Shown one piece after another: positions 25,963-63,875 of a DNA stretch of 64,000 bases (within the stretch, counting starts at the first letter, position 1; each line of letters starts with the position of its first letter). The translations under genes and the position numbers were made by a program. The notes under the pieces are model-generated. The model was not told the DNA's origin and searched no databases. It was given only the letters and a program-made list of their open reading frames with translations. Origin of the DNA: Chondrosia reniformis (Eukaryota; Porifera; Demospongiae; Chondrillida; Chondrillidae); contig OX359191.1 of assembly GCA_947172415.1 (NCBI GenBank), positions 1,364,001-1,428,000 of the forward strand, written 5' to 3'.

Positions 25963-26169
25963 TGCATACAAAATCTCTTTTTATTATTAAATAGTTCAAT
26001 TATATTAAAGTATAATAGATCTAGAGAGTTCAATTTTACTAAAGTCAGTGAAAATGTCTATACATAACAAAATGTACTACATAATACAAATTACACATTA
26101 AACAGTTGGTGTGAATGACGGGATTCATGCACCCTCACTGATGACGAGGTCGATTGGAGTGGTTGTTAT

Positions 26170-26318
26170 AAGTAGGAATGGTGCGCCTAAACACAGAAGT
26201 GTATGGTTAAGTTACTTAAATTTTGATGCAACTTCTGTATGATTAGCCTTATCATATAATCAGTGTCCTGTTTCGATACTTTTTGCAGATGTATTAGTGG
26301 AAACTGCCATTCCTACTT
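26170..26318. mobile_element. MITE, 12-bp TIR AAGTAGGAATGG, 149 bp
   Basis: Starts AAGTAGGAATGG (26170-26181) and ends CCATTCCTACTT (26307-26318), exact inverted repeats. The interior closely matches 62216-62356 (aaacacagaagtgtatggtta, gcaacttctgtatgatta, tgtttcgatact, gcagatgtattagtg). Non-coding, non-autonomous. Confidence 0.8.
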
Positions 26319-26431
26319 CTAAACATTTTTACTTTTAATTAACTCCACCATAGATTATATAACTCTGACGTAATCATTCACATATAATCTATGGCTCCAT
26401 TATATCTACATCAGCTGTGGTAACTTGATTG

Positions 26432-26440
26432 TCAAGGTCA
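26432..26440 (+). promoter_or_regulatory. TCAAGGTCA element upstream of receptor 2
   Basis: Same 9-mer, 6 bases before the ATG, as in receptor 1 and receptor 3; the preceding gtggtaacttgatt block is also shared with receptor 3. Confidence 0.4.
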
Positions 26441-26446
26441 AAGAGA

Positions 26447-31319: not shown

Positions 31320-31395
31320 ATATTTATGTGTGAAAGTTGGAGTTACGTTATTGTGTAAACGGCGTGTTGGTTGTGTGTGTATACACAATTTACTA

Positions 31396-32525: not shown

Positions 32526-32953
32526 CGGCAGTATTTTTATTACCGAGCGGTAGAGCGAGGTTAATTGCTTCCGTCGCTTAGGGGAGTCGAATCGAGGTTA
32601 ACGTTGCCCATGCACATAATTGCCTAAAGGTGTGGTAAAGAAGATAGTTTTCACAACGTCCATCGTCTTGAAATTACAACAACAATGAGATTAAACTTTC
32701 CTGCGGAAAACAGTTTTCGATTTATTTATTGGAGAAGCGGGGACTACTAATTTCTCTGCGGGACACTGAAAACAAAACGAGCAACCATATTGACTTCCAT
32801 ATTTTTAATTTAACGATATATCATGTTACATTTCAAAATGGATGCTGCCGAGGGTCTGAACTACGTTCACGGCTATCTAATCTTGTGGTTTATCGCTCAA
32901 TGTATAAGATCTCCGGAAACTCTGTGGTAACTTGATTATCAAGGTCAAAGAGA
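32526..32953 (+). promoter_or_regulatory. Promoter region of receptor 3
   Basis: A GC-richer stretch (32560-32640) of unknown origin leads into the promoter block shared with receptor 1: TATAAGA near 32912, ccggaaactctgtggtaa, and TCAAGGTCA at 32939-32947, six bases before the ATG. Confidence 0.4.
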
Positions 32954-40800: not shown

Positions 40801-43375
40801 TGAAGATACTGACGTCCTTGGGTTCACTTAGCATTTCAGGAATAAAAGAGCCTGACCAAGTTAGATCTACTTCCTCAGATATAGTAAGTAATAGTGCATC
40901 GGAGTTCACGTCAACTTCGTGGCCTCGATCAACTGGTACTACATGCATATAACATATTATTTATATTCATATTTCTTTATAACAACACATATAGTCATTA
41001 CTTTGTATATATATGCACAAGGATATACAGTATATATATTTAGGAAGATCTAGAGTTGGTTATCCGAACTTCAATATATCCAAACACATTACAAGTTTAT
41101 AGTTAGTCTTGCACGATTCCTTACAATGACTATGGGACCAGTTAATGTTTTTAAGACAGCAAAGAAGTAATCCAGGAATCAGAAATAGGAAAAACTCTAA
41201 TGGAATGTATATATATATAATTGATAACAAACAAATTGCCCATATACGTATACGTATGTACGTACATACGTAGATGTAAATTGATTGCTTTAACAATAAG
41301 CTTTTAAATTAAAATTATACAAATTGTCCTAATATATTTTAGCTATATTATATACATGTACATGCCTGAAAATAATCTGATCACAATGTGTTTGGATAAC
41401 AACTTCCTATACACTGTATACTCTCAATTAAATATGACTACAAAGCTATAAACTCACAAATTTGAATGCTTCTTTTTGCATAAAATTTCCTTTGTGATTG
41501 GAATAGTACTGTGAATGTAAATTCTATGGTACCAATGTTAGAAAAATTTGGAGAAAAACAAAATGCCTTCCTTGGATTGAGATAGTAGCCTGGGACCTCT
41601 TGGCTGCCAAAAGTGCAATTAATCATATCATTTTCTTGAAAACAAGACGTTTCTGTTACAATAGTTACCGGTGTTCCTCCTAGCATGTGAATAAACTGAG
41701 GCTCTAGTGATATGGTACCTACGTATAAATAATTTATGGTGTATATTATTAAAGTGACATTGTCAAATGAAACTACAAATAATCTTATTTAGTCAAGCAT
41801 GTAGGGAATGATTGCAGGCAATTGAAACTGGGACAGCTGGTTTTGCTCTGTCATTAGCTGATCATGAGCTATTTATGTTTGCCACAATAGGCCTCCCTTT
41901 TATACATGTATACACTAATACACTAACACATTATTAAGTTCCATTCTGAAAACAACAACAAATACATAAAATAACATAATCGTATATATGCCAACCTGAA
42001 CAGTTTGCAAATTGCAATTGTTCTTTGTCAATTCTGAAAATCCACTTTCCAATTTCCCCAGTGTTTCCTGGGATACTGTCAATGAAGCCAATGTCATTAG
42101 TAACTGAGCCATCAATCTCGTAGTAAGTTACATTATCTCCAGCATTGTAGCCTGCTAAAGCTCCATCTGTATCAGTCATGTTCCACTCTATTCCATTAGT
42201 GGCATAGTTAAATATAGCTATTGATCTATTTCCATCTGTTGCTATGACTACCTGGAAAGTATTCAGCTACAAATGCCAATAACAAAAGTATAAATGAAGA
42301 TGCATTATAGTAAATTGAAAAAAAAACTGGCTGTATAGACATATGTATATATGCTATTTAGGGCAAATACACTATATAATAGCGTTTGCATAACAAAATG
42401 CTATATGCTTAGGCCTGTGCTATGGAACTGAAGAGATTAACCTCAAATAGGTATTATAACCTATATCACAGCTAGCTTAATAATATAGCAATTGTGCAGT
42501 TCAAAATATTCCTACATGGTAACTAATTATATAGTGTATAGACATTGTGATGGTTGCAATTGGCAGGTTATTAATTAATCATTATATGAGATCATTTGTG
42601 CACAATTACTAAGTCATTGTGTTCATTGTAGTATCCCACTTGACTCCAAGTCACTATAAGGCCCCAATTGGCTGAGAATTCTTGAAAACCCAAAAAGTCA
42701 CCAGTCTCTTTACTGATACTTGACAGTAATTCAGTACTGTTTGTTGGGTATAGAACTCGATAAGTTATTCTGCCAGGCTCCACTCTGATGTCAACATCAG
42801 ACCAATAGGGGGCAACCAGTGCTGCCCAGTAAGTGAGATTTGAGGATAGGGGAAAGGACATGGGTATGTATTGTGAAAAATCATAGTCCTGAAGCTGAAA
42901 TGACAGAGCACCGTGCACATTCATCTAATCAGAATAGTAGAACATATAAGTATAGAAGTACATAAAGATTAATACTGTGTCATGAATCCGTGTTTTCCAA
43001 AAAGTGCTTATATGATTACATTCATAAAATATGGCCAATTTTACTCAGTGACAAGGGGGATTCCAGGTAATTGACCATGGGTGGTGCAATTTTCTGTAAA
43101 TTTGATTTACATAATAAAATGAGATAACTCACGATCACAAATGGATAGTTTTCGCCAAAGAAAGGAAAGCTAAATGGAAGAGTATCATGCGGTATCCGAA
43201 TGGGGATAGAGTGATCCAGGATTCGTGGAAAGAACTGATCTCCCTGTTCCTCTCCAAATGGAAAACCAATGAACTCTTCATAGGGAATCGCAGCGCAATA
43301 TTGATTTATTAGCAAAACAGTCATTGTTTCCGTTAACCAAATTAGATTCCATGAAAACACTCTATGCCTTCCCAT
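37863..43375 (-). CDS. Secreted NIDO-IPT-AMOP-VWD-EGF-EGF protein, Mesh/MUC4-like (11 exons, 1067 aa)
   Basis: Exons, 5' to 3': 43133-43375, 42610-42924, 41996-42251, 41458-41718, 40311-40938, 39984-40225, 39265-39831, 38882-39136, 38716-38811, 38241-38345, 37863-38098. All phases agree. Reading: signal-like N-terminus; NIDO about aa 40-270 (FPFFGENYPF, then an AALVAPYWSDVDI core); IPT/TIG-like about 272-358; AMOP about 500-640 (CCYLE, then IYCCKS and RPSDRERY); VWD about 649-837 opening with YGDPHLVTLDG; an unassigned segment 838-922; EGF at 923-954 and 955-989. NIDO-AMOP-VWD is the core of Mesh, MUC4 and SUSD2-type adhesion proteins. Those usually end in a TM segment; here the C-terminus has none, so it should be secreted or matrix-bound. 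The NIDO donor at 42609 is the least certain junction. Confidence 0.85.
38446..38685 (+). repeat. Hammerhead-like repeat, copy G (core deleted)
   Basis: Matches copy F, but the segment between stem II and GAAAC is shortened (ggaatttaaacgg), so the core is broken. It lies in the intron between the two EGF exons of the minus-strand gene. Confidence 0.6.
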
Positions 43376-44095
43376 AGTGCAATTGTGGGGAGCTGGTTAT
43401 GCGTATACGTACTGTCATCCAAATTTGTATTTACTAGCTTCCAACGTTTTTCTACTCTAGAAATAACAGTACTAGTGTGCCTTCATAACCTCCAGGACTT
43501 ACATATATACGCTGGATTCCACTTGTAAACAACTAAATGTTATTCATTGAATACCGCTCGTGTGATTCTAAGGGAATGTTTGTGTAATAAATAATATTCA
43601 TTAGAGCGCTTCTAAACCTAAAATACACTGACTACTCATATCACAAATAAATTGGCTATACAGTAAGTGATTTCAATTGCGAGGTTCAGGATACTATAGC
43701 CAATGGCTATGAGATTCAGGAAAGACCAGTAAGACACTAGTTTACCTTAATGCAATTAGCAAGAGTTCTCTTCTGATATATTAAAAAGCATACCTCAAAG
43801 AGTAATTATGCATACATAACAAGCAGATTTCCCTACCTGGTCCTGGTAGGGTATTATATACAGAATTTGCTTTTCTCATACGCTACCATGATGTCATAAA
43901 GCAGTATCTATGCCTGCCATACTTTGATATATGATAATTCGCATGTCATAAGCAATTGCAAGCTGAACTTATTCATATATAAGCAAACCTACAGGCACTT
44001 TATAAGCATATATATCATATTTTGTAGCAGCGTTCTAACACTAATACTAGGCACATAATCTCTTGTTCAAGATCCCAGGGCCCTTAACTTCTTTA
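43376..44095. other. Intergenic between two minus-strand genes
   Basis: No coding sequence seen. It should hold the promoter of the NIDO/AMOP/VWD gene and the 3' end of the Ig-domain gene. Confidence 0.45.
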
Positions 44096-46134
44096 TCAAT
44101 AGATCATGGCTGTCAAGGCAGCAAGGAACAATAGAACTGCTGTGCTAGTTGCTATATAATTGTAGAGAAGAAACAACAAATGTGTATAATATGTAATATG
44201 AAGAAGACTTGATTTAAAAAATCACAACTATACATACCTCTGACTGTGACCCCAGCACTTTCGCTCATGACCATGCCATAACTAAAGGTAAATGTGGATA
44301 CAGCTGCAGTATTATCAAAACTAGCCACATAAGTGCCTTGATCCTCAAACTGTGTCTCCACAAATTGTAATCCATTTTCCAAAATAGTCACCTTGTTATT
44401 GCCAGTAAAGGGACGATCATTGAATGTCCAAGATACATTATGTCCAGCTGGTTTTCCAGGGTCAGTGATTGTGAAATTTACTATAAATGCTTCTCCAACT
44501 GAGAATTCTCTAGTTTCTGTACTTGTAGACAAACTTACTGGCCCTTTATAGACAGAAAATGTGATAGAGGAACACCGATGTCATAGTTTGTTATTTCAGA
44601 AATCCAAAGCTTTGATAATGAAGACAACATAGTAACTAGCTGATAGCAAGATATATTATATACCTAGATCAACCTTTACACAGAGCAAATTTATATACAA
44701 TGATCTTGTAGTTTGCAGTTGACTAAGACTGTCAACTCAAAATGTACTGTAATAATAAGATTTTCCAGTTAGGCTACATGTCATTTGCTATAAGCTTCAT
44801 ATGGTATAGGTAAGCTTTCAGGAAAACTATACACCTTAAATATCATACCTATTACTGTAGATTTAAGCGGGATGAAGTTATACTTGCTAGCTTGCAATTG
44901 TATGAAGTGTTGCATACAACTTACAAAGCACTGAAATTGTAGGCCATGGTTCAGGCTGGTTATAGTGCTTATCAAAGTCAATAAGACAACGGACAACTGC
45001 ACCTTCTGAATCCCTAGTTACTCCTGTTACCATTAAGGGAGACATATAATCTGTGCCAAGTCTAGCCCGCCCTTTCCAATCCACCCAAACATAAGGAATG
45101 GTCGAATCTGATTCTGAAAAAGTGAATCCAGTAGGTACAAGTGAGCCGTACACTATCCAAGTTAAGTCTTGTCGTTTTCCATCCCAGGTGGCCTTACAAT
45201 TCAAATCAAAGCCCTGGCCCTCCACCACAGTTATATTATCAGTAGGGTATTCAATAAACTCAATTCCTACATGTTAGCAAAGAGAAATACAATTTATGAG
45301 GAATAATGTATTGATAAAGATAATGAAATTAACAGGACCTGGTTTAAAGACTACATCAAAAAGCAGCTGACAGGACAAGAGGTAAAGAGCCATGGCAATG
45401 GAGAAGACTGGTCACAGCTATATCCTTTACCAAAATGGTGGACACTCGGCTGGCTTTCGCTTTCTAGCTTAAAATTAGCTTTCCCTTCCTTAGCATCGAA
45501 AGTTTTACCAACGAAAAGTATTTAGAAACCACCTTTACTAATACTTTGTAACGTAAAGCTTGCGCAAAAACGTTTTCTACGGGATACGGTCTTGAAATTG
45601 ACTGCAATTAAGCAACGATCGGAATCGAATTTATAATAAATAAAAACTAATTTGCATAAATTTGCTGGAAGAGAGCTACTGATTTTATCTGCTCCATGCA
45701 TATAGACTAACTATATTATACTATACTCCTATACTTTATAGTACACACAGTAAAACTGCTATAGTAAATGTACATACGGTATATACCTGTAGTACAGGTA
45801 AAATTGTTTGCTAGAGCAGTACCTCTTGGTGGTGGAGGAGGTGGAGTAAAGTCATCAGGACTATCTGTCAGAATAAATGTGTACATTGACAATCCAGCTT
45901 GGTTCTCAAAGCTGACAATGTAGGTTCCCATGTCTGCTGCCATTACATTTGTAAACTGAAGGCCATCTGCCACAATGGTCACTCGGCTATTTCCAGAGAA
46001 TGGTTGGTTATTGAACATCCAAGTTGTGGTGTAAGTGTCAGGATTTCCAGGATCAGTAATGTTATAGGCTACACTGAATGTTTCTCCTGATGCAAATATC
46101 TTTTTCTCCCAATTTGTTTCCAGAGTCACTGGCC
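44096..46134 (-). CDS. Ig-like domain exons ending in a GPI-type tail
   Basis: Exons, 5' to 3': 45787-46134, 44925-45266, 44238-44543, 44096-44151, joined by phase-1 introns. The first and third exons are related to each other (both have ITDPGxP, a Trp-Phe-Asn core, NGLQF/DGLQF and DQGTY/DMGTY) but lack the usual Ig cysteine pair. The middle exon is a conventional Ig-like domain with LNCKATW and VVRCLID. The last exon encodes 18 residues, mostly hydrophobic and without a basic stop (TAVLLFLAALTAMIY then TGA), as in GPI-anchor signals. A PPPPPP linker follows the first domain. No start codon is found for this set, so it needs an upstream exon; the obvious candidate is at 46977-47458, but the phases do not fit. 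Likely a cell-surface recognition protein. Confidence 0.7.
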
Positions 46135-46510
46135 CTGTATAGGAGCAGCATTATACATACATACATAATGTATAATTATACGTATTACATATAATTATAC
46201 ATACATATATGTCTATGTATCACAATATATTATAGTAATGGTAAGTTAACTGTTATATACAATGTATACCGAAAGTCAGCCAGTTATGTGTGTACACACA
46301 TAATATATTAAGAATTTAAAATTGTTGGAATTTCTACCATGCATAAACTAATTATTTTGGCAAGAGTCAGTGAATTATTCAAAACAATGTCATTAGATTG
46401 TATCAACGTGTCTACCAATAAAGGTACAAGTTAAAGGAGCTTTCTATCATTTTGTTTTTAAAGTCACTGTTCCTATATATTTAAAGCAAAGTCCATTTGA
46501 TTACTCATGT

Positions 46511-46883
46511 GGAACGCCAAATGTGACTAAACCTAGGACACGCCAGAGACATACATAATGTTGTAGTTTGGATCTTCCTTATGTGCCATCACCCCATTTT
46601 CGCACACCAATTAAGGTGATGGGTCGAGTCACATGGCAAGAGCGTGTTAGTCACATGTTCAATGTAAAATGGCTGCTCGAGTGCAGAATTGAGTTTTGTC
46701 GAAAATCGATTTCAGAAAAACGTTCTTTGGGTAATGAAATCGATTTTTGAATAACGATTTACCGGGAATGATTTCTGTAAAGCGATTTCAGAAGGACAGT
46801 TTTTGCAAAATCGAATTTCAACCAATCGTATCGACATTCGACAATCGATTTTGTGCGCTAGATTTTGTCGCATTTGGCGTTCC
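46511..46883. mobile_element. MITE with 13-bp perfect TIRs, 373 bp
   Basis: GGAACGCCAAATG at 46511-46523 and CATTTGGCGTTCC at 46871-46883 are exact inverses. The interior is non-coding and repeats the text cgatttc/aaaatcg. It lies between the two parts of the Ig-domain locus. Confidence 0.8.
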
Positions 46884-46976
46884 GTAAATATTAATATACA
46901 TTTCACAGGAGAGTATCTGAGCCTACTATATAATCCACAACCAATATCATTAGGGTTTCCATTCAACAACTCACAA

Positions 46977-47458
46977 TTAATAGACTGAAAGATTAGCCGG
47001 GGGATCGGGCTGAGAGGTAAAGTAAGATGAAAGAGGAGGTAGAATCACTTGTGCAATGCACCCGATTTTCCAGCCATGGGCGTTTCTCGTTATGTTAAAC
47101 AGTTTAATTGTAGAGTAGTATTCATCTTTAGGGGCAATTACAGCTTTAGTTCCGTCTTCAAAAAGGACAGGAGAAAGTCTACCATTGTAGAAGCTATCTC
47201 CGTTAGGACCTTGAAGATAATACGAGGCGTAGAATTTGGTTCCGTTTGCGGTGCCCGTGCAGGAGAATGTTACTTCTCCGTATTCTGTCACGGTGACGTT
47301 TTCGTTAGGGGAAGTTTGAAACAGAAGCTGCACATTTTGACCTGTAAAGATCAGAAGAGACAGAAGAGGTATACGTCGACTTCTTCTGATTTAGTCTACG
47401 TACCTTGGCTTTGGCACAAGATGAGTGCAGTTAAAGTGACAACCAGATACAGTGTCAT
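46977..47458 (-). CDS. Signal peptide plus one Ig-like domain (2 exons, 139 aa as read)
   Basis: Exon 1 47404-47458 starts MTLYLVVTLTALILC, a clear signal peptide, and ends in phase 1. Exon 2 46977-47341 carries an Ig V/I-like domain with paired Cys (VTFSCTG and WKIGCIAQV) and a PDPPANLSV linker, then TAA at 46977-46979. A strong-looking donor (gtgagt) lies three bases beyond the stop, and no in-phase donor precedes it. Either this is a short secreted Ig protein, or the 5' end of the Ig/GPI gene with a missed exon or an altered donor. Confidence 0.65.
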
Positions 47459-48338: not shown

Positions 48339-51300
48339 ATGGGTGACCAAGATTTAAATCCTATATGCCACGCCTGCTACAAATGCTTGGAATTCAGTCC
48401 TGTCAAACTAGTTGATACGAGTACGGGATGCTTTCAAGTTGATCAACACAATACGAAAATCCCCAAGGTTTGTTTACTGAAGCTTTCATTTTATATTGAA
48501 AATAATAAATATTCTATATAAATTCAAAAATACTTCTATATACCACAGTGGTCTATAAATCATTTTATGCTTGTCTTTATTTTATTAGCGTATAATAATA
48601 TTATATGACATTGTTACATTGTTACACATTCTTGAGCACCCTTTGAAACCTGGCTGTTCAACAAGTTTCAAATAGATGTCATGCCATATGAAACCTGAAA
48701 TTTGATCCTTTGTAGTGCAACATGAAACCAGCTAGTATTATATTGCTGATGTGGCTCTTCCTCTAGATACCTTACTAATGAATACACTCAAATAATGTAA
48801 ACAACAGAGTCATCGTAGCTATATATAGCTTACACAAATTTGCATAGTATAGTCTTGTAACTACATATTAGGTGCATGTTTGAGTATATAGGTTAGAATA
48901 AGGAAGGGATAAAGGTGCATAAACACCAAAAGGGGCAGTTAAAACCTATGAAATTATCAACTACAGTAAGAATATATCCATATAAACATATTTTGAAACC
49001 TGGCCATTCAAAAAGTTTCAATTTTCTTATATTCCATAATATGAAACCTGACCTAATTGTACATGTGTATAGCAACCAACTTTTACAAAGTCATTGTCCA
49101 ATACAATAGTCTTGTAACTACGTACACAACACTATACACTTGATGCATGTTTGTGTAGGTGAAAATGATTGCCCTGCCGTCTGGATCTGTGTATTTGGAA
49201 GAACGATTAAGAAATACCTCAAGAGTAGATGGAGGAAGATGCTGTCGATTCCATTTTCGACGTAAACCTGATTGCTGGAAAGGTTCCAGTTGTCAGTTTG
49301 CTCATGATGAGGTCGATGTATTTAATTCCCATGGTATGTATTCTAGTTTTACAACTGTTTATGTGTTATAGTATAGCATAATATGTATAATAGTTTCAAA
49401 TATACAGCTATGTAGCTACTAATGGTTAAATGATATACATATTATTACATATATATAATCCTGAACATTCATATAGACTATATCAAAGAGGTATGCAATG
49501 AATGCTTGGAGATAGCTTTAGGGAAGTTGGAGCTTCTTCAGAAAAGAGTATGCCTGGAAGAGGAACATAAAGGAAGAGACTTTCCCGATAGTTTTCTCTG
49601 GTGCCTGCCTCTTAAAGGAGGTGTAATCAGTATTTGTAGACCTATCTCTATAAATGCTGATGAAATGAGAAGAAGGGGATTTGACTTTGTGATGCAACAT
49701 ACATTCCTTAACTGTTTCTATGGAGTAATGGCGTGCTACCGCCCTCACACAAAGGTTGAGGAAGATGTGTGGAACAAGTGGAATAAAAGTGGAGAAACCA
49801 GAATGAAGCTTCATAATAAAGGGAAAATCTTCTACATTGAATTGAGTGAGTATTATATGAGTCTGTGTGACTGATTTATGTATAGAATTATATTCACTCT
49901 ACTACTATATATATAGTACATGTAAAGAGATTCTGAAAAAACACTTAATGTTAATTCCAATAAATACATGAAGAAAGAATTATACAAAGTGTGACCTGCA
50001 AAGCATTTTTATATAATTGCCTCTTTATAGTTGATAAAAGAAATAAGAAAATTGAAGAGAGAAAGCTAGCTATTGCATCAGTTGAAGAACGTAAGAGAGA
50101 AGAGAATGCAAAACAGCGCAGATTACTACAGGAGCAAAGAGCCCTTCATCAAGTAGTACATAATTATAAGAAAGATTTCAATACACTTTTGGAGACTGAA
50201 ATGTCTGCTATTACAAAGTCAATTGAATCTTCTTTGAAGTATGTTTGGTAATCTACGTATATATACGTACATATATACTCTCAAGTTTACTATTTACTTA
50301 CTTACTAAGTTGTCTATAATTTCCATGTGTGTTTGTAACTTCTATTTTTGAATCTAAATGCCAGTGAAGTGGCAATGTTCTTAATAGTAATGTGACTGGA
50401 CAGGCTGAACCTGCATGCACGCATTATTGCATGTACAGATTATTATATATACATATTTAATGTGTATGAAATGTTTGTTTTATTCGTTTACATGTAAATG
50501 TCTTTTTGTAGAGAAACATTTCAAATGAAAGCTGTTCCTGAAGAACTGGTAATGGGTTCTCATGATCACTACAGATTGGTTATTATGAATCAAGAAGTGT
50601 CTGAATTTTTAGAGAAACATGTAGAAAGTGTACATGTACTGGTATATCCTCGGCGGGGTACCCCAGCTCACAGTATGCAAAGATTTAATGCTCTTGTTCA
50701 CAAAGTGCACAGCAAGGGGCTAATTTTGCAACCAGAACCTTACTTCCGTTCACAAATGCCATTACCTGTAGACTGTGCTGTGAGTTTGCAATTGAAAAGT
50801 GAAAAATCACAATTTCAATTTCTGCAGCGTGTTCTAAATCAACTGAAGGCAAAAATTATATCACGTGTTAATCCAAATGTTGAGAAATTCAAATTAGTTA
50901 AAAGGAATAAAAGCTTTGAAGCATATTCAAAAAATCCATTCCTTTCCGTGGATGCTCTCTTTCAGCAAAATGCTGTACAGCTAGCCCTAAATGCCCCGCA
51001 TGATGGTCCTCCCTTTCTACTGATAGGACCTTTTGGAACAGGCAAGACACGTCTCATTGCCCGCATGACCTGTGAAGTGTTGATGGACCCCACTTCCAGA
51101 GTCCTTATATGTACTCACCACAATCAAACTGCCGATAGCTATATTAAAGCTTATTTTTCCAAAGTTAGGAATCTCCCATGTGCTCCAGTTAGGCTGGTTT
51201 CTAAAACCAAAGTTGACAAAAGACAAAAAGAAGGAGCTAGTTACTTTTTGTCTAACTATGAAATGAGCAAAGAGGAACTATTTGAAAATTATAAGAAGAG

Positions 51301-54300
51301 CAGGTTGATAGTGACTACCACAATGACTGCATATTCCATGCATGATATGAACCTCCATTTCAGTCACATTTTCTTGGATGAAGCAGCTCAGTGTACTGAA
51401 ATAGAAGCAATGATACCATTATCCCTTGCTGGACCTGAAACAAAGATTGTCCTTGCAGGAGATCACTTACAGGTGTGGAAGTGTACATGTATATGTCACT
51501 CTGGAGTATTGTTATATATATATAGATTACCTTAGTATATTGTAACTTGTACTGTATATATGTACATACTGTATAGCTGGAACATTTAAATGGCTTCAAA
51601 CTGAGTGTATTTAATATTGACGGAATTTAAATTTGACGGAAAAATTAAATCCCCATCAAAGTTTCTGACTATATATATGGTATATATATATACTTTTATT
51701 AAAGATAATATATAATTAGCTACAGCTGACTATATATGTAGCATATTACACATGTAATACAGTCTGTGGTGTATATATGTTTCAAGTATCTTACAATTAT
51801 ACATTTAAATGTTTCTGCTTGAGTTCAGTAGTTATACGTATTTCCTGTTTCATTAGGTTGGTCCTGGTGATAGCCTACGTAGTTCAAATTCTGATGTTGT
51901 CAGAGGAGGTACAGCACCTAGTCTTGCCACATCTCTACTTACCAGACTTCATCAGCTGTATACCAAGTTCCTAAAGCAATCAGAGATTAAGAATGATCCT
52001 CGCATTCTTTCATATATGGCCAGTTTATTGACCAATTACCGTTGTCATGCTGGTGAGTGCACATAGAGCTTACCAATACATGTACATATATATAAACGTA
52101 CTTATGTATATATGTAGTTAGTATGTCTTGATATTGTTTGCAAACTTACTGTAAGTGCATGAGGATTGTGTTTCCATATATATACTCTTTAGGTATTTTG
52201 AGGGTTCCTTCAAATCTTTTCTATGAGTCATCACTTTTGGCCAGAGCTCACTATGAGCTTCATTCAGAAGTGAACAGCTCTCTTTGTTTTCACTGCACCT
52301 CCTTAAAGACACAGGCCTGGTCAAGGGAGATGCAAGAGGAAGAAATCAGAATAATGATGAATAAAGCTTATAACCTCTTTAAAACCTGGCCAGAGGAATG
52401 GAAAAAACTTGGAGAATCTAACAATTCAATCTGCATAATGATGCGAACCCATGAACAGGTATATACGTACGTAATGTAACTTGACACATGTATGCCCATC
52501 AGCTACATAATATATTAGAAGTATAAATTTCTTATGCATATAATGAGACATTCAAACATAATAGCATAGTATATGTGTATATTAGTACCTACATACGTGT
52601 ACTAAAACTTGTCTATAATTGCCATGCATTAACCAGCTGTACGTAGTCATATAATATTTCATAAGTGATTGAAGTACGTATATATACGTATATTAGGACA
52701 GTCAAGTAGTAGGTGCATGTATATTGGCTGCTTTTTATACCCAAGTCTGAACCATTGGTTAATAGGCTTGAGCTTGTAAAACCCCAACAACTCATGTCTA
52801 TTATCAGAACGTATATGTACTTAGTATATAAGTATTGATGTGCATGTATACACTTTATGTATTGTTTCTTTCATTTGATTAGTTGCAGTTAATAAAAAAG
52901 CAGCTATCACAAAGAGAATGCCCCAATTTTAAGAAAGCTGTAATCTTGAGAACTATATACAGCATCCAAGGTATGTTTATATACTTAGATGTATGATGAT
53001 TTATTAGTTTTATATATACTTGGAACTTCATACAATGAATTTAACATATGGCCATGCTTATAGTATCTGAGTGCCTATGCTACATACGTATATACTCTGA
53101 GAAACCTATAAAGCTTGTAGTTTCTAAATTAAGTTAAAAAGATCTCATTATCAGGTACTGCCCTTAACATGGCATGCACTATGATGACTCTACGTATATC
53201 TGCTGACCTTTAGTTGCATGACCTTTAGACTTAGGGAACAGGGTAAACATATCAATACAGTGACTAGTATACATCTGTGATTATCCTTATCACATGATCA
53301 CAGTTACTTTTCCAAATGTGCTAGTCACTGTTATATGCACTGCCATCCCTACTCGTAACTTAAATTTATAAATGTTTTCTTTGACTTAATTATTGGATAT
53401 ATTATACTGAATTATGTTCATGTCCTTTGTAGGTCTGGAGTTTACAGCAGTATTCCTCTGTACTACTGAGCCTTATGATGTAGTGGGTGGAAATCCTGTT
53501 CCTAGGAAGCAAGCCATTGGTTCTAGCATCATGAACAAGAGAGTCTTTAATACTGTACTCACTCGAGCTAAGGCTCTTTTTATTGCCTTTGGAAATCCCT
53601 TCTACCTGATGAATGCTGAAGGTGATTCAGACTGCTGGAGAGAGTACATCAAGCGATGTACTGAAAGCAGCAGCATAACATTTCAAACACAGCCCTCCGA
53701 TGACCAAAAACTACGTTTATGTGATATGGTTTTCCACTTTCCACTCCAAAATATTGATATAAGGCCTGATACTTTTATTGAGAATTATGCTAAAGAGTTT
53801 ATTCAACAGCTGGAATGTGTAAACGAGGAGTGGAAAATTAAGGTTAATGATTATGACCAAAATCATGATTTGCCATTAGAAGAAACTGGTGAATTGATAA
53901 CCCAAGGCACCATTTGTATTCTGCAATGGAAATCCTCAACATATGCGGAAGCAGTCTCAATTTCTACACCCTCTGAAAGATTTGCCGTACAGGGTGTGAA
54001 TAATATGAATGCTGCACTTGACGGAGCCAAAGTTTTGGTTGTACCCTTTACCGAGCTATACCCAGAAACAGAAGAAGTCTCCAAAGAACATTCTTATCGA
54101 CTAAAATGTGTAAAAGTCATAAGGGTGTTGGAGCAGGGAAATCAACAGCCTATCTTGTGTAAAATTGATCCTTTGAATAGAAATTTGTTCATTCCTATAA
54201 GAGGACAAGGTCCCATTTTGGCAAATCTCCCTCCTATATCATTAAAATTATTGCAATTAGAAAATACATTGCACCAAATTTTAAATAAGCACATTTCTTT

Positions 54301-57300
54301 GCTTACAATCCCCTGTTTCAGTGGGCCCCTGATTAAAGAAGGTATTCCACTGTTATCAGACACCATACCAATTGAATTTGTGGATGATCTTCTTTATTTG
54401 GTACACATTATTCACTGGGAAAAAGGTCAGAAGTATCCCATGGCAGCTGTTGTTGGTGCATTTCCCCTAGCTAGAAATAATATTATGCATGAGAATGTAA
54501 GGAAACGGTTTAGCCTGGAAGAGTTTGAATCCATTCAAAAAGGAGTTGGAGGATCAATGATTCAAAACTTAGTTAGTTGCAATTGCATATGCACTGTTAA
54601 GCCAATTATAAAATACAGTATGCTTATATGTAATTCTTAATTTACATATATAGGAGAGATCAATCACTCCTTACACAATGCAATCTTGTCAACAACAGCT
54701 GCTTGAAGTGCAAAAGTTTTTCCTACAAGTAAATACTTCATATTTATATGTCCTAATATATGTAGTAGATTCTGTTGTCATTATGTTTTTATCTTTTACA
54801 GCTCAAGGAACAATTCTCTTGGCAGAAATCACAATTGCAAGATTTTGTAAAGGAGACTGAAGATATGTTAAAGGTTTGTATAATATATGTAAAATAATAC
54901 AATGAATTATACACTCGCTAAATCGTAAATTAACTCGCTGTTAAAATAATGCAAACTAATCAAAATTTAGGCTTATTTCAATAATGCGGTAACGCAGTTT
55001 CGTTGCTTGTAGGAAAAGATTGCTTCCTGAAACAAGTATTTTCAGTTATAGGCGATTAATTACGATTCACCATTAGCCCTCGTTTAATCGTAATTCGCTT
55101 GTGCACAAACACCAATAATAATACAATACACATAGCTTCACTAGTATAGTCAAATGTCTTTTATCCATGCATGAATGTAATCACCGCTTACGTGCTTCAT
55201 GCATACTGTCTTATATTCCCACTCTGGAACACCGTTGGGTGTTGATGTAACATTAATATAAAGTCCTTAAGTACTATAACACATTTGAATGAGTGATTGT
55301 ACTGTAAATTACATACATTTTCCTTTTATATAGCATTCAATCAAAAGTCTGCAGGATTTGGAAAAGGGAAAAATAAATTTAGCACTCCAAAAAGAGGTGG
55401 AAGAAAAAACAGCTCTTTTAGTGAAATATAAATCAATTGAAACAGAAAGGGACAATTTGAGGAAGGATTATATCAGGTCTACAGAAACACAGGCTGAAAT
55501 AATCAAGGTTACACTGTTGTTGTGAATGTCTTTCTAATGTTTATATTGATGCAGCTTAGGAGATAATAATATTATACAGAAATTAAAATATGGTCACTAT
55601 ACAGTAAGATGCATGGTTACTGTATGCACATCTAGAGAGGTGGCCACTAATAATAGAGGGTTGCATTATTGAGAGGTGTTTCAAGATGGTCAGTACTATA
55701 TAGAGAGTAGTTGGGATTATATATTATAGAATTGTGAGATTGTACATTTATACATAATAGTTATATTTTAGTTTAACCTTTATTATTTGATCATGTACAT
55801 ATAAGGAAGAGCAAGAGCTTCGAAAGAAACTGACTTCAACTCACAAGGAAGAATTAGAAGCCTTGGAAATAGTAAAGAACAAGGAAATTACAACTCTTAA
55901 GAAAGAGAATAAAGCTTTAGAAGAGGTATTATTATATATATATGTAGTGTGCCTTAAGATTGGAATTGTTATACGTACAGTACATATATGTATACTGTTA
56001 TAACTTTTTAGCAACTTGCCACTTGCTTTCTTCCGGAACATCATGAAGTCTCCAGGAATATGGAGGTACTATAAACTGTTTTTGTAATGCACATATTTAC
56101 GTATTTATATATTTTTAGCCACTAGATAACGGTTATAATTAATACATTGCCATGTGTACATTAAAATCTCAAGTCTCTCTCAACTTAAGGACTCTGAGGG
56201 TTTACGTATTTGGAGTGGCCATGGGCTATAATTAGTGTATAACTCAAACCCTGAACTAACATTTGAAAGGTGTATTAGACCCTAAGGCCTATGTATATAT
56301 TGTAGATACCAAAATGTGGAAGCATATATTTCTATTTGGGAAGAGTATTATACAGTGGAATCCCACCTTGTGGACACCTTTATATGTCTCAACAATTAGG
56401 CTTATTCTGCTAATGTAAATTTACTACTTATTGCAAACTTTTCATTCTGATGGGTGTTTACATTATATATAGGATTCCACTGTACATCATAATATAATAA
56501 TTATCATGTTATTATTATATATATATAAATTAAATTGAAAAAAATATATGTATTTGATATAGCCCAGAGGTGAGGACAGTAGCCAGAATATATATAATAT
56601 GAGGCCGAGGCCGGGTAATTATATTTTGACAGAGTTCTGAGGTGATGAACTATAACTGATTTATACCCCATTGCCATGGCATTGAGCAGCCACTTCCTGT
56701 TTATTTACTAGTTCACACTGTATATCCTGTTAATCAGCAATTCACGCTGTATACAGTAGATAATGCCCCTATTATTAGCTCGTTGCCATGGCAATGGACA
56801 GGGTTCAATCTACTGGGGTGGGGGGAACTTCTCCCCCAAATACTCCAGCTTCCCCTTCCCCCCGAAATTTATCCAATTGCAATTTAAAAATGGCATAGAG
56901 AAAGTTCTCACCTAGATGCTAGTATAGCTAATTATAAGAAGCGTAGATTACCTTTATGAACCATTATTGTTGTACTGTTTTGTTCTGTGTCTAGAGTATC
57001 ACACTCTCGAATAAGACTAACATGTACCTATCTCTGAATTAATTATATCATATAATTGCTGACAAAATGAGTGCATGAAAAGCATCATGGCTAACGTTCC
57101 AGAAATGTGATTTTTACCTCAGAGTCTCAGATCATGTCAGAATCAATCTCAGAGGGCAAAAATCCTGGGGGGGGGGGGGGGGGCATGCCCCCAGACCCCC
57201 TAGCTCTCACGCCTTCTTCCCCCCCCCAAAAAAAATTGCATTCTAGATAGAACCCTCATGGAGTATGTATATATTTATTCTCTCTGTTAATATTCATTAA

Positions 57301-60300
57301 AGTGCAATAATAATTATATAAAAAGCCTGAATGCACAGTACATACGTCTAGCAAGGTTTTACATACATTATCTATAATTATATTTGCACTGCTCCCAGGG
57401 CAACACATTAATTATTTTGTCAAAATGTTTGAGACACACTAACTTGGTATATAGATGATCTTTTCTGCATTTTTTATTGATAGGCTATCACAGAATTACT
57501 TGATGCTTGCAAGCAGTATATGTCTACTTCTGAAAAAATTGCAAAAAAGGTAGGATCCTTGAATCAACTACTTTGTGATCTTATGAATGTCAAAAAATTC
57601 AGCTTAGGGATCTTAATGTATATTGTTGCAGGCACACATCCATTTGTGCTTTTATTTGTTATTTTGTATAAAATCAGACATCTATAAACAAGACCTATAA
57701 TATATTTTCACAGTATCCAAAGACTCCACTGGACAGAAGTGTAAAAGGTACAGAATTATAGTTTGTTGATTTACAATTTCCATTGCCTAATCAAGAACAT
57801 GCAGTTTATGCTGTGATTTTCTATTTGATATAGGTCATGAAGATTCACTTGAGAAACTATGTTGGTTTCCTTTTGGAATTCATACTCTTTTGGTGGAAGC
57901 CGTAGGTGGAGATTTTACTCTGGATTATGGTGACACTATTCTTGAGATCCCACAAGGAGCTTTTGAAGAGGATTGTATCATTCGCTATGGCATTGCACTA
58001 CATGGACCGTGGCTACTTCCTCAAGGATATTCTTTATGCAGTGTTACAGTTTATTTGAATCTCTTAGGGCAGCAACCAAAAAGGAAGCTGATACTGCACT
58101 TGTCCAACTGGTATGGAGGAAGTAGCAGAGACAGGCTAAGGTTTGCAATAGCGCCTCATCATTTGATTACAGGAGAGTCAAAATACCAGTTTACCTTACT
58201 AAGTGAAGGAAATTTTTCCACTGCTAGCAATGGACAATTATCCATAGTAGAGTCTAAATGTCTTTATACAATTGCCTGTGAAGAACTGCAGGATGATGCA
58301 AAATGGCAGATTGCCAGTATACAAAAGACTTTGGATAATTCAATAGACAAGGAAAAGCTAAATGTGCTGTTTACTGTTTGCTCAAACAATTGGTCACAGG
58401 TTTGTTAGACTATTGTAATGCTTTATTAAATGTTCAATTATGAGACACAACAATCTGTATGTATGTATACATAATATACGTATAATACCTATAATAAGGA
58501 CGATATAAAACGTTTTGGGACAAATTGAAGACTAAGCCAAAACAAAACGGTACGCCGTTCTGGCTTAGTCCTAACGAACTTTACTATACTATTTTTGATG
58601 CCTACCGTATATATGTATACTATGAATTTTGGGTTTTGTAGATCATGGAGGATCTCTATGAAGTAGGGACCAGTTGGAAATTAGAGGGACGGTGGATACC
58701 CTTTTCATTCAAGAAAAAGAAAATATCTGCTAAAATTGATCCCTCTGAAGGTCCAGGCTGGGTAGCAGATATCTATGGATGTCAAGATGTATGTTGACCA
58801 ACTCTGTCAATATATATAACTGTATGAGCATGCAAAGAGTACCCGACATTGCTCGGATGAAAATACCACCTAAATTGCTGTAGTTTATTTGCATTTAATT
58901 TATTGATCTAAAGATGTGGCCGTGTATTAAAAAAACATCCACACATGGATGCATGGGTCTTTGTTTTTTCTGGGAATTTATTCTTCATGATGTTTTTGAA
59001 CGGTGTATCCCTTAAATTATTCATAATATATTACAGTATATCTGTACCATGCATTCTACTGAACTATAATAATATAATAGGGGGTAGTTCTAGTTGCCAT
59101 TCATTGAATTTGAATGTCTGTCTGTTGAGCTATCAGCAGCAAAATTGTACTGGGTTGGACATTTCTTTATCAGCAATTTTGAGGTAAATTGGGATTACAA
59201 CTGGTGGTTGAATAAAATCAAAAGCACCAAAATGAAAAATATAAATTTTAGTGTTAATTGATGGAATGATGTCCTTCCGAATTGGGTCGAGTGACATGCC
59301 CTGATCCATTTTTATGCATGCATCTGTTAACCTGGATATATATGCATTGCCTCTTTAATTTTTCTTCTAAACTTCTCCCTTTTCCTTTGGATCCTCCCAT
59401 TTTATACTATGATCTTATATACTTGGACATGCATTAATATTGAGTTACTAAATGCCTCTCCTAACAAATCTCTTATGATCTGTTATATATTCTTTCATGG
59501 TATTGGATGTTTCCTCAATTTAAATACACTTGGCCGCATTCATAGGGTATCCTGTAGATGACCCCATTAGCTTAGTCTTTCCTGATTGGTGTCTTTACCC
59601 TTTTCAGTTGTAATCTTTCCTCTTTGTTGATTAAGACCTGAAATCAGTACAATTTCATTCTGCATGATATATAGTTCAACAAACATGCAGACTTTCAGGT
59701 TCACATAATATAATACACTTTAGTTATTGTAAATTTTATATGGATATATCACTGAGTACTTCTTTTACCACATGTTATATTGTTGTTACATCTGTTAAAT
59801 TATTCTTATAGATTGAACGTGCAGAATTTCAAAAAGAGTTTTATGATGGTCCAGCTCTTAAGGATGCAGTAGAAAGACATCTATATCCTCCATTTTACCC
59901 CTGCTGGGTTACATACAAAAGGAAAGAGCTACCGCATATGAATAGAATTAAAGTTGTGATTGATGGACTCAGCCGTACATTCGATTTTCCTCTTTTAATT
60001 AAGGAAGGTACTTTATATTCAAAGACATTCACATAATGAAATCAATTAAAACTGAGTCTGGAGCTTATACCTCTATATATTGTCATAACCTTTAGTATTC
60101 TGTACAAAAAAGGAACATTTATTTTACCTATATATATATATACAGTGCAAGTTACAATATACTAAGGTAATCTAAATAAATAAATAAATAATATAATATA
60201 ATATAATGTAATTAAATAATTCATATGGCTCCAAGAAAGGATCTAGAAACAAAATGGGCATATCATCATAAAGTATAGGGTATAAAACTCGTTTTAAATT

Positions 60301-62731
60301 AAGGGATTTCTTATTTAGGCCTCCGTTTGTTAGAAAACGGAGGACAAAGTCTGCATATTAATGGCCATAGGACTATAGAAAACCTATGGAAAATTTATAT
60401 TCAAACCATGTGTTATATTAATAAAATTTTTCAATTTGTCAGATAACTCTGAAACCAACATATATCATGGTACATGTGCATAGGAAACGTCTGGCGAAGT
60501 TTTGCTTAATTAAATGAGAAAAATAATCAAGATAATAATGAAGAATTCAATGTTACGATTGTGCAATCTGATGATGTATTATGATGTTTCTCTTTTGCGT
60601 CACCAACACCTCTCGTATGTCGCTCCGTAAACATTTAGTGAATCTTGTGACATTGCAAAAACGTCACCGCCTCGTTGCTAAAGAAGATCATCCCTTTCGC
60701 GGCTATGACAAGTCGACGCTCTCCTACGAGAAGGAGCTACGGAATAAGCGAGTTGCAGCGAAGGTTAGATAAAGCGTATTTGTATACGTTCATGTTAAGT
60801 TTAAGCCAGAATTGTTGCTATATATTGATGTTAAATAAATAAAATAAATTCGTTTAGACGACCGTAGTAAAACTTTGGTAGTTTAAGCTCCGCCATCTCT
60901 TCTTTTGTTTTCTGTTAATATTTTTACTGGAATTTTTGCTGATAATGGCATGCAGATGCATCATCTTCCAGTCTATACTAAGGTGTGAAAAGGTAATTGG
61001 AAGGCCATGCGTTTAACCTTATATGATCTGTAGAGACTACTACTCTGTATGCAGCAGTTGAGAATTTCAGTGTGGCTAAAGTCTTGTAGCGTTTAATATA
61101 CCTGATTGTGATTATTTTGGGAGTCACTTGCATCCGTGTATAAATTTGTAACTTGCATATATATATACACGTATATAACCCATTGCAATAGTGTTGTATA
61201 TAATGATTGTGTCTGAACCCATGCAACATGCATGCCCAAATGAATATATTTCAGTGGATGTCGGAGGCAATGGGCTATAAAATATCCCATTGCCAGGGCA
61301 TTCTGTCATCCCAGGATTGAAATGGTTAAAAAAGCAAGGGAATGCTTGAAATTTGATTATATCAAAGGAATAAATGTATTAGATTTCTTAATTCTTGTAT
61401 AAACGATTTTATGCATGCTGTATTGGCAACATGCAAGCTGTTATCATACTGTATTCTCTAGCTTTATTAGTTATTTGCTGTTTGTTTTTTTCAGGTCATG
61501 ATCAAAATCCTATCCTCCCTCCAAGTACTAGTTCAATGGACTTTGATGTTACAGCAGTACCTCTTCAAACTCCAGGAAAAACCTCTAACCTGTTTTCAAA
61601 TCACTCAGCTGTTCTCCCATCAAAAAGAAGTACCAGATTGTTAGGTATGCTAACAATACATTATTATCACAAATCCAGGGCCAGATGTAGGGTATTTATT
61701 GCAATTAAAATGAATATGGGATGTATATACCTATTTTCCATATTCATATCTAGTACTACATACATACTGCCTTGTGTTTTATATATAAATTAATTGTATA
61801 TATGTATCAGATACTCTCCAAGTAGGAATGGCCAGGGGAAAAAGTGGCCGCCCTATCCAATGTATTAGCAAGCAACACCTCATAAATCACCAACGAAGCG
61901 ATTTTCGGTTACATTTGGTTATTTGCGGCCATTAATGCACGCTTTTCTAAATGCCAAAACATGTTTCGATGCTCTACACGCTCTACAGCATTCAAAAAGT
62001 GGCTAACCAGGAATAGGCCCATTTCCAAAATTCATTTCTTCTTCTTTTATTGAATAGACTATACCGCTAATATGCGAACTTATGCAGGCACGTACAAGTT
62101 ATAAATTGTCATAAATATTTCCGAACTAGGGAATAGACAGCCCTAAATCTGAATGTGCTCTACAAGAAGCATGTTAATTGTGAAAAGCGAAAATTGTGGT
62201 GCAAAAAGTATCGAAAGGAATGGTGCGCCCAAACACAGAAGTGTATGGTTATATTTCAGTATACATGCAACTTCTGTATGATTATCCTTATCATAATGCA
62301 CTGTCTTGTTTCGATACTATTTGCAGATGTATTAGTGAACACTGCCATTCCTACTTCTAACATGCATCATTTTTGTAAATGTTTTTTATTTACTTGTTGT
62401 ATATATTATATACCAACTAAGATAATGTTGTGAATCATAATAATTGTGTGTAGAATCTGTCCCCTCAGACCAAGATCTTCAAAAGTACATTGTTAACAAG
62501 TGCTCTGCTAAGTGGAGGTCTATCGGTACTTATTTAAATTTAGATAGTAACATTTTAGAAGGAATTCGTGTTGATACTCACTTACCAGATAGCCAAGAGA
62601 AATTATTTAAAGTTCTGGTAACATGGAAGAAAAATTCAAACAGTACATGGAAGGTACTCATTGAGGCTTTAGAAAATGCTGAACAAAAGAGTATTGTTGA
62701 AGAATTAGTGAAAGACTATCAATTTAATTAA
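48339..62731 (+). CDS. CCCH zinc finger - SF1 helicase - coiled coil - ZU5 - Death protein (21 exons, 1820 aa)
   Basis: Exons: 48339-48467, 49159-49333, 49477-49845, 50031-50238, 50512-51472, 51857-52052, 52193-52458, 52883-52970, 53433-54571, 54654-54728, 54802-54873, 55334-55507, 55806-55925, 56012-56065, 57484-57549, 57714-57747, 57834-58399, 58642-58788, 59812-60007, 61495-61644, 62454-62731. Phase is continuous throughout. Reading: CCCH finger about aa 68-90 (C-x9-C-x5-C-x3-H); charged helix 225-290; helicase about 440-870 with Walker A GPFGTGKT (466-473), Walker B LDEAAQ (Asp583-Glu584), AGDHLQ (609-614), NYRCH (about 675) and NTVLTRAK with Arg842; unassigned region 880-1177; coiled coil about 1178-1375; ZU5-like about 1395-1560 (VEAVGGDFTL, EIPQGAF); unassigned 1565-1728; Death fold about 1731-1815 (WRSIGTYLNL, VLVTWKK, LIEAL). 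The helicase half resembles HELZ/HELZ2/MOV10; the C-terminal half resembles UNC5/PIDD-type ends. The exon 9 donor (tta/gttagt) is weak, so a two-gene split is the main alternative. Confidence 0.8.
48600..49150. repeat. Diverged duplication in intron 1 of the helicase gene
   Basis: Two copies of a text block: tttgaaacctggctgttcaa...atatgaaacctg (48640-48705) and tttgaaacctggccattcaa...atatgaaacctg (48991-49050), each followed later by agtcttgtaactac and a gcatgttt block. Confidence 0.6.
56351..56484. mobile_element. Tc1/mariner-type MITE, 134 bp
   Basis: TACAGTGGAATCC (56351-56363) and GGATTCCACTGTA (56472-56484) are perfect 13-bp inverted repeats starting with TA, the usual mariner target. 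In intron 14 of the helicase gene. Confidence 0.75.
56798..57260. mobile_element. Repeat element with G17 homopolymer and inverted ends
   Basis: Left end agggttcaatcta and right end tagatagaaccct are imperfect inverted repeats. The interior holds a run of 17 G (57167-57183) followed by catgcccccagacccccta and a C/A run. A similar G/C-rich fragment occurs at 11306-11355. Intron 14 of the helicase gene. Confidence 0.55.
60617..60772 (+). CDS. Small ORF (51 aa) nested in an intron, hypothetical
   Basis: Starts ATG at 60617 and stops TAG at 60770-60772. The protein is basic and helical-looking (MSLRKHLVNLV at the start, then HPFRGYDKSTLSYEKELRN). The coding stretch is richer in G and C and uses CGT, CGC and CTC codons, unlike the surrounding intron. 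AATAAA lies 62 bases downstream (60834-60839). It could be a small nested gene or an intronless retrocopy. I do not recognise the family. Same strand as the host helicase gene, in the 1487-bp intron 19. Confidence 0.4.
   Translation: MSLRKHLVNLVTLQKRHRLVAKEDHPFRGYDKSTLSYEKELRNKRVAAKVR
61820..62356. mobile_element. Longer relative of the AAGTAGGAATGG MITE, 537 bp
   Basis: AAGTAGGAATGG at 61820-61831 and CCATTCCTACTT at 62345-62356. The right quarter matches the 149-bp MITE at 26170-26318, suggesting that the short form is an internal deletion of the long one. A weaker relic is seen at about 53270-53363. In intron 20 of the helicase gene. Confidence 0.7.
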
Positions 62732-63383
62732 ACAAATGGGATTTACATAAAGAATTAAGTGTATGGTTTGTATAGTTTTATAGTTGAATAATTAGACTAT
62801 GTACGCATATATATAGTTTTTTTTGTATAATTGGACATTCTATATATATAATACTGCTGTAAAATATAAATTTTATAATTTCTGAGCTGGAATTCAGTTA
62901 ACGGCATGTAAACCCTCTTAGTCATTGGCTACTTTACATTGGTTCCAGGTTGTTATTACAAGAGAATCTAATGAAAAGAAGGGTATACATGGGTAAACTA
63001 TGTGGATGAATTAGGGAAAGCAAATATAAATTAAATCATGTCTGAGTATAAAACAGCTAGTGCAATTTTTAAAATTTCAGAGTTAAGAATGTAATGTATA
63101 TATACGTATAGCTCCCACTACAAACAGAACCCAAAGTTTAAAGTATATGTAAGAAAGGAGAGTTGGTCAAAGTATACGTACATCTGATTCAATGCACATG
63201 ACATGCAATGATTATGTATGATTACGTACATGTTTTCCAGAAGACTGTATATACATGTACATGTACCCATCTGCGCATGCAACATTGATCAATCATTTGC
63301 AATGATTAAACATATGCATACAGCTATATATAAGCTATATATATAATATGCACCCTAGCCATTTAAATACATCTGTGCAGTAC
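62732..63383. other. 3' flank of the helicase-Death gene
   Basis: AT-rich, no coding sequence on either strand; I looked for the continuation of the minus-strand integrase-like exon here and did not find it. Confidence 0.5.
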
Positions 63384-63729
63384 CTTCAGGGTCAACCCTA
63401 TGAATACTTGCTCTTAACTTAGCTCGTGGCACCTTTATTCCTTCAGACAGTAAGTGACCAGCGATCATGACCTCACCATCATTGGGATGTACTTGCTTGA
63501 GAGTTGTAATTTTATCATCTAGCTCTCTGTCAGTTATGTCAGTGTAGGTCGACATTAAATCTGATGTTGCTAATTGAGCAATTTTATTGTATAGTGTCTT
63601 ACGACTAATACCAAGAATTTCTGCTATTTTTGATTTTGAAAAATTCAGTGACGTAAGATACTTGATATCTTCAACACTTACTTCCAAAGAAGGCCTTCCA
63701 GTGGTCTGAGATCTAGATGATTCAGCCAT
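63384..63729 (-). pseudogene. Isolated first exon of an integrase-like transposon protein (HTH)
   Basis: The minus frame starts MAESSRSQTTGRPSLEVSV and contains a resolvase-type helix-turn-helix (FSKSKIAEILGISRKTLYNK), then a conserved segment with GEVMIAGHLLSEGIKVPRAKLR and HRVDPEG. This layout is the N-terminal part of a family of eukaryotic integrase-core proteins, where a DDE domain follows. Here a good donor (gaag/gtactg) occurs at 63383-63384; reading through instead gives a stop at 63355. No DDE exon is seen in the remaining 650 bp before the convergent gene, so the copy is probably broken. Confidence 0.6.
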
Positions 63730-63875
63730 TTTTTGGTAAAAGATAGTACATGTGTCATATGAGGATATCCCTGGGTAATAATTTTTAAATTACATTGGCA
63801 GTACTTTTGCATGGTCACATGCACAATTCATGACACCATGTGACAATAGTGTGACCGCACATGCACTAAATATAT

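Follow-up and report, generated by a model that had tools for sequence, protein, structure and literature searches.

The locus analyzed here lies in a window of 64,000 nucleotides from the sponge Chondrosia reniformis. It raises the questions of whether an RNA helicase and a Death domain are encoded here by one gene, and what the product of such a gene could do. The original prediction described a single frame passing from a CCCH finger through a HELZ/MOV10-type helicase to a coiled coil, a ZU5 domain, and a C-terminal Death domain. Positions given below without a contig name are those of the window.

The predicted gene and its helicase half

A chain of coding exons was rebuilt manually from the window. 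The chain runs on the plus strand from ATG 48339 to TAA 62731 and contains 20 exons and an optional exon of 54 bases (56012-56065). All introns are of the GT-AG type, and the phases are consistent along the whole chain. With the optional exon included, the product has 1795 aa if exon 9 ends at donor 54497, 1820 aa with donor 54572, and 1828 aa with donor 54596. The 21 exons and 1820 codons of the original prediction, together with its coordinates, strand, and frame, were reproduced with the optional exon and donor 54572; judging by the length of 1820 codons, this donor was probably the one used there. With donor 54497, neither a frameshift nor a stop was found within 1795 codons, and the other two frames of the same chain contain 121 and 158 stops. 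Thus, the coding observation is real and lies far beyond chance.

Exons 1-2 (48339..49333) encode the N-terminus and a CCCH-like finger, which starts at aa 72 and follows the pattern C-x9-C-x5-C-x3-H. The finger predicted earlier is therefore present as a pattern but not as a Pfam match, zf-CCCH remaining below threshold (E 0.3, 11.5 bits vs. a cut-off of 20.5). All four ligands are conserved in a tandem copy of the helicase, described below. Exons 3-4 (49477..50238) form a phase-consistent linker toward the helicase, without domain assignment and with 92 and 90% identity to the tandem copy. The SF1 helicase core is encoded by exons 5-8 (50512..52970), and exon 9 with the preferred donor (53433..54496) adds the last motif and a HELZ2-OB-like region, recognized in an alignment with six paralogue frames. 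The five motifs named in the original prediction were all located in the rebuilt protein: GPFGTGKT (Walker A, aa 466), LDEAAQ (aa 582), AGDHLQ (aa 609), NYRCH (aa 674), and NTVLTRAK (aa 837).

At E ≤ 1, the helicase half gave 15 Pfam families. Three of them exceeded their cut-offs: AAA_11 (1.3e-20) and AAA_12 (6.5e-17), the two families proposed earlier as a check, and UvrD_C. The OB_HELZ2 family matched the window protein weakly (E 0.18, below cut-off). No RNB exoribonuclease domain was found in the window gene by the Pfam scan at E ≤ 1. DEAD-box and RIG-I RD families were likewise absent from the matches at E ≤ 1, with a weak ResIII match below cut-off (0.012). A search of the PDB with the helicase returned UPF1/NAM7, SEN1, aquarius, and 5'-3' RNA helicase-like entries. 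Since no HELZ2 or MOV10 entry was among those listed, this search does not place the helicase in a family.

The placement comes from paralogues in the same genome. A tandem helicase copy was found directly after the window (G000, about C3:1429260-1437278). Its protein identity to the window gene is 76-98% in exons 1-8 and about 55% in exon 9. Homology stops at about 54466, and the frame of the copy extends ~450 aa beyond this loss of similarity. When the tail of the window gene was sought downstream to C3:1446000, the only match had 11 residues and an E value of 6.1, which is chance level. With a dS between the two genes of 0.005 in exon 5, the helicase exons have been homogenized recently; the remainder of exon 9 is saturated. 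A different SF1-type helicase gene, with GTGKS and DECGFATEPE recognized by eye, is located downstream of the tandem copy (about C3:1439200-1441700).

Pfam scans of six helicase paralogue frames from the same genome showed that five reach an RNB domain, the exception being the tandem copy. The RNB E values are 1.2e-31 in the C6 copy, 2.2e-36 and 2.9e-38 in two C10 copies, and 1.4e-9 and 6.9e-7 in two C5 copies, the second of which has precisely the cut-off score. OB_HELZ2 was matched in the C6 copy and both C10 copies with E values from 2.6e-4 to 1.5e-6, under the cut-off. In the alignment with all six frames, the similarity of the window helicase ends at the OB/RNB boundary. Because five of six frames continue into RNB, three of them with these OB_HELZ2 matches, the window helicase is classified here, by paralogy, as a HELZ2-type sequence without the nuclease end. 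The gene would thus be derived from the HELZ2 family without being a full member, RNB being absent. The earlier assignment to the HELZ/MOV10 type holds for the SF1 helicase, but the type is HELZ2 instead.

Several other coding regions were observed in the window. A single-exon ORF of 880 aa on the plus strand (19106-21748) contains three stretches of RRM type and two of WWE type, as well as a PARP catalytic domain; we take it to resemble PARP14-type antiviral proteins. Repeated membrane-protein-like ORFs, by eye apparently tandem duplicates, occupy 22861-35040 on the plus strand, one having an fn3-like part (E 2e-4, below cut-off) and another no Pfam match. Near-identical inverted GIY-YIG-like fragments were recognized by eye at 28402-29253 (minus strand) and 29273-29827 (plus strand). 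The one that was scanned gave a Pfam E value of 2e-4, just below cut-off, and we presume that the pair may be the remnant of a Penelope-like retroelement. The minus strand at 38844-47390 carries one or more genes with VWD (1.8e-17) and NIDO (8.7e-16) domains, as well as ORFs that look Ig-like by eye; the one scanned (46977-47390) had no Pfam match. Just downstream of the predicted gene, a helix-turn-helix ORF with the look of a transposase or resolvase (HTH_8, 3e-7) lies on the minus strand at 63355-63789.

The tail and its paralogues

The tail starts with a coiled-coil linker, exons 10-16 (54654..57747), in a phase-consistent chain in which every exon has a phase-0 start. Exons 10-13 are located at 54654-54728, 54802-54873, 55334-55507, and 55806-55925, and exons 14-16 at 56012-56065 (optional), 57484-57549, and 57714-57747. 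The coiled coil expected after the helicase is present but modest, its mean a/d occupancy being equaled or exceeded by 18 of 500 shuffles. The Death domain is encoded together with the stop codon by exon 21 (62454..62731). The tail half gave three Pfam families at E ≤ 1. Among them, Death exceeded its cut-off (2.1e-5, 25.0 bits vs. 22.6), which agrees with the prediction of this domain at the extreme C-terminus. The best PDB match of this domain was THO complex subunit 1, a weak one (E 0.022).

Exon 17 (57834..58399) has a phase-1 start and encodes the ZU5-like domain. It has 54-62% identity to six close paralogues and 31-36% to a larger family. An alignment of 19 sequences was built from the window exon, the six close paralogues, and 12 distant ones, 11 of the 29 matching loci being left out. 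Pfam ZU5 matched 12 of these 19 sequences at E ≤ 0.01, with a best value of 3.7e-6. No match at E ≤ 1 was found in the window protein, nor in any of the seven close members (the window and its six close paralogues) scanned singly. All 12 distant members are therefore the ones that match, although these matches are not all independent, three of the loci (L005, L006, and L023) having first been found with the ZU5 profile. The profile of the alignment found nothing in the PDB at E ≤ 1 and missed both of two canonical ZU5 proteins encoded in this genome, and NCBIfam had no match on the ZU5-UPA region. Exon 17 is probably homologous to ZU5 proteins through intermediates, without direct recognition. 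In this form the ZU5 domain of the original prediction was retained: the distant relatives match the family, but the close members, including the window, do not.

Exons 18-19 (58642..60007) fill the interval between the ZU5-like and Death domains and have matches in the paralogues. No Pfam UPA match was found in this region, and it is labeled from its position. Exon 20 (61495..61644) is, by eye, a linker rich in Ser, Pro, and Thr. No HFS or SFS cleavage motif was found in the tail of 643 aa. Comparison with the kinase paralogue described below gave dN/dS values of 0.29/1.79 for the ZU5-like domain, 0.35/2.7 for exon 18, and 0.46/3.2 for the Death domain (Nei-Gojobori method, own script; dS near saturation). 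Because dN is well below dS in each of these parts, the tail is under purifying selection there.

The closest ZU5 paralogue (C3:432349) is located downstream of a protein kinase exon on the same strand. The corresponding predicted gene (C3:423143-434392) has a Pkinase domain (9.2e-33), coiled-coil ORFs, a ZU5-like exon, and then a Death domain (3.3e-5). We take this order to be reminiscent of RIPK1 with an inserted ZU5. The kinase exon has a phase-0 donor at C3:424400, five codons before its stop; the next coiled-coil exon starts in phase 0 at C3:424500, and the first two coiled-coil joins could be read. As in the window gene, the ZU5 exon starts in phase 1.

Other fronts were found upstream of the remaining close paralogues. 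These pairings are predicted joins by genomic position, except for one paralogue whose unassigned N-terminus lies within the same ORF. Ankyrin repeats precede two paralogues; one set was tested with Pfam (Ank_2, 1.6e-7) and the other was called by similarity. Upstream of another lie a long ORF, whose COR-A match is below cut-off (0.0051), and two Death ORFs (5.0e-5 and 5.1e-5). For the paralogue at C3:421k, coiled-coil and unassigned ORFs only were found within C3:412001-421000. At C3:421175-421250, one base is missing near its ZU5 start in comparison with the C3:432k copy, so that this copy may be broken or may use another acceptor. At the N-terminus of the C3:117k paralogue, 100 aa look death-fold-like by eye; having no Pfam match, they were left unassigned. 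ZU5-like exons with 30-40% identity form a large family, which is clustered at C11:1.36-2.26 Mb and was also found on C8 and C2. Helicase and tail matches occur together only at the window locus, taken with the tandem copy beside it, among the matches listed (at least 40 for the helicase and at least 97 for the tail, compared by eye).

The helicase-tail join and the alternative readings

The gene depends on the join of exons 9 and 10 through intron 9 (54497..54653, 157 bases). Nine GTs follow the last conserved stretch of exon 9. Four of them (54497, 54545, 54572, and 54596) are in phase 0, so that an in-phase join is easily obtained by chance. Donor 54497 (AAT/GTAAGG) has a score of 4.9, which is the best of the nine and lies at the 90.5th percentile among 810 GTs; it is outscored by 16 of the 19 donors accepted in this gene. 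The weaker in-phase donors 54572 (1.8) and 54545 (1.0) were kept as alternatives. Donor 54596 is in phase, yet it was rejected with a score of -3.8 (7th percentile). Acceptor 54654 lies at the 94.5th percentile and is outscored by seven of the 19 accepted acceptors.

The unspliced frame of exon 9 runs through the intron to TAA 54638-54640, which would end a helicase-only product. The tail frame includes ATG 54678, which makes a tail gene of its own conceivable. The locus would then hold two neighbors: a truncated HELZ2-like helicase with a natural stop, and a second gene for coiled coil, ZU5, and Death that begins at this ATG or in an exon farther upstream that has escaped notice. This would agree with the end of homology to the tandem copy shortly before the donors, with the modest scores of all in-phase donors, and with the occurrence of ZU5-like exons at many places with no helicase match nearby, among the matches listed. 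However, the stop is separated by 13 bases from the first acceptor of the tail, and this acceptor has an ordinary strength that would be needless for a first exon. No AATAAA or ATTAAA was found in 54601-55371, which is weak evidence against two genes, about one in five such stretches of this AT-rich DNA being estimated to have none by chance. Poly(A) signals were found 210 bases after the stop of the tandem copy and 299 bases after the final stop of the window gene. A real fusion is best supported by the kinase gene, in which both the phase-0 join and the phase-1 start of ZU5 recur. Two neighboring genes are unlikely in our assessment. Because of the kinase parallel, the ordinary acceptor 54654, the best in-phase donor 54497, and the 13-base gap, the exon 9-10 join is likely to be real and the locus to be one gene. 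The frame from CCCH to Death claimed in the original prediction is open in phase through 21 exons, the join itself being made probable by the kinase parallel.

A fused frame could also belong to a locus in decay or one rearranged not long ago, as a pseudogene or chimera that yields no stable product. The recent homogenization of the helicase part with the tandem copy would fit such a locus, as would the position of the join in rearranged sequence. This is highly improbable in view of the open frame of 1795 codons, the intact helicase motifs, and dN well below dS in the tested tail parts. Alternatively, one stable gene may act otherwise than as a sensor and give neither a death nor an immune output: the helicase might only recruit RNA or RNPs, or the ZU5-Death tail might do scaffolding work of the ankyrin and UNC5 kind. 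The ZU5-UPA-Death arrangement does occur outside immunity, in UNC5 and ankyrins. On the other side, the partners located near the same kind of tail (kinase, ankyrin repeats, and Death) would by analogy fit death or immune proteins, and HELZ2 acts against LINE-1 (PMC9839780). A non-sensor role appears somewhat unlikely.

A possible effector swap and known systems

We lean toward the reading that the locus is one functional gene, formed by tail swapping, whose product acts as an RNA-triggered seed of a Death-domain complex. The comparison with paralogues suggests how it could have arisen. The starting point would be a HELZ2-like RNA helicase-exonuclease gene that was duplicated in tandem. One duplicate would have been cut short at the OB/RNB boundary, losing the nuclease, and a phase-0 intron would have joined it to the kind of coiled coil-ZU5-UPA-Death tail that also sits behind a kinase in this genome. 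In the mechanism considered most likely here, the window protein would sense RNA and assemble a death complex. The helicase would bind foreign or mobile-element RNA in the cytosol, and this binding and ATP-driven remodeling, aided by oligomerization of the coiled coil, would gather the Death domains. At rest, ZU5-UPA would restrain these domains and, upon release, seed their assembly, as proposed here by analogy with UPA in NLRP1 and CARD8. The resulting platform could recruit a Death-domain partner and lead to a caspase or NF-kB-type output. Because the tail has no HF/S or SF/S motif, release would be conformational, not by self-cleavage. Retention of intron 9 would give a helicase without the tail, possibly a decoy isoform.

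A broader form of this proposal is evenly poised in our judgment. It holds that an antiviral HELZ2-type helicase-nuclease traded its nuclease for a PIDD-like ZU5-UPA-Death tail to become an RNA-triggered death-complex seed. It also makes the gene a member of a modular platform, in which one kind of tail is combined through phase-0 introns with varied fronts (helicase, kinase, and perhaps ankyrin repeats or a GTPase). If there is one transcript, the gene would be an SF1-helicase counterpart of RIG-I-type sensing with the nuclease replaced by a death-fold tail. RNA recognition of the HELZ2 type would then have been coupled in animals to the assembly of death complexes, and a direct route would open to asking whether RNA is sensed by HELZ2 helicases. 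A small plug-in sensor platform, open to mapping across related genomes, is suggested by the kinase gene, which ends in the same kind of tail.

Human HELZ2, an interferon-stimulated protein, lowers LINE-1 RNA, the helicase mattering more than the nuclease; two helicases flank its RNB domain (PMC9839780). The window helicase is, by paralogy, an SF1 helicase of the same kind and has a CCCH-like finger below the Pfam cut-off. Unlike HELZ2, the window gene has neither RNB nor a second helicase, and it ends in the coiled coil-ZU5-like-Death tail. In PIDD and in NLRP1/CARD8, ZU5-UPA stands ahead of a C-terminal death-fold domain and self-cleavage occurs at HF/S or SF/S; UNC5 and ankyrins are named alongside the ZU5-UPA-Death proteins (PMC3210808). 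With UPA beside the death fold, CARD filaments form at a lower threshold (PMC7794386). PIDD1 (LRR-ZU5-UPA-Death) and NLRP1/CARD8 (FIIND-CARD) resemble the predicted protein in their order (PMC3210808): a sensor part, which the helicase would be here, then ZU5 (ZU5-like in the window gene), the place of UPA, and a death-fold domain at the C-terminus. The window gene differs from them in having a helicase in place of the LRR, no HF/S or SF/S motif, and a ZU5 too divergent for Pfam. Elsewhere, ZU5 was described with a NACHT domain in cnidarians (PMC8260672) and in a RIP-kinase-like protein of amphioxus (PMC9573974).

The helicase-ZU5-Death order was not found in the literature searched for this architecture or its parts. 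The earlier statement that no protein with this order had been described stands within this literature; the idea itself has precedents (PMC8998645; PMC8195603). Thus, the HELZ2-coiled coil-ZU5-Death combination has no published match there. RIG-I-like receptors with a Death domain occur in the sponge Amphimedon queenslandica (PMC8998645) and, like the window gene, pair an RNA helicase with a Death domain in an early animal. However, their helicase is SF2, they have an RD domain, their Death domain is N-terminal, and no ZU5 is mentioned in the available part of that account. In invertebrates, TRADD-N is fused to Mov10, DDX60, RLR-like receptors, and UPA-ZU5, and its expansion in Amphimedon comprises 357 proteins (PMC8195603). 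In these fusions the adaptor is TRADD-N, usually with DED, and the HELZ2-ZU5-Death order is unnamed in the available part of that source. The TRADD-N and Death-like fusions of cnidarians, brachiopods, and others nevertheless resemble the predicted gene in mixing death-fold adaptors with RNA helicases (PMC8195603), and in this respect the principle behind it is a known one.
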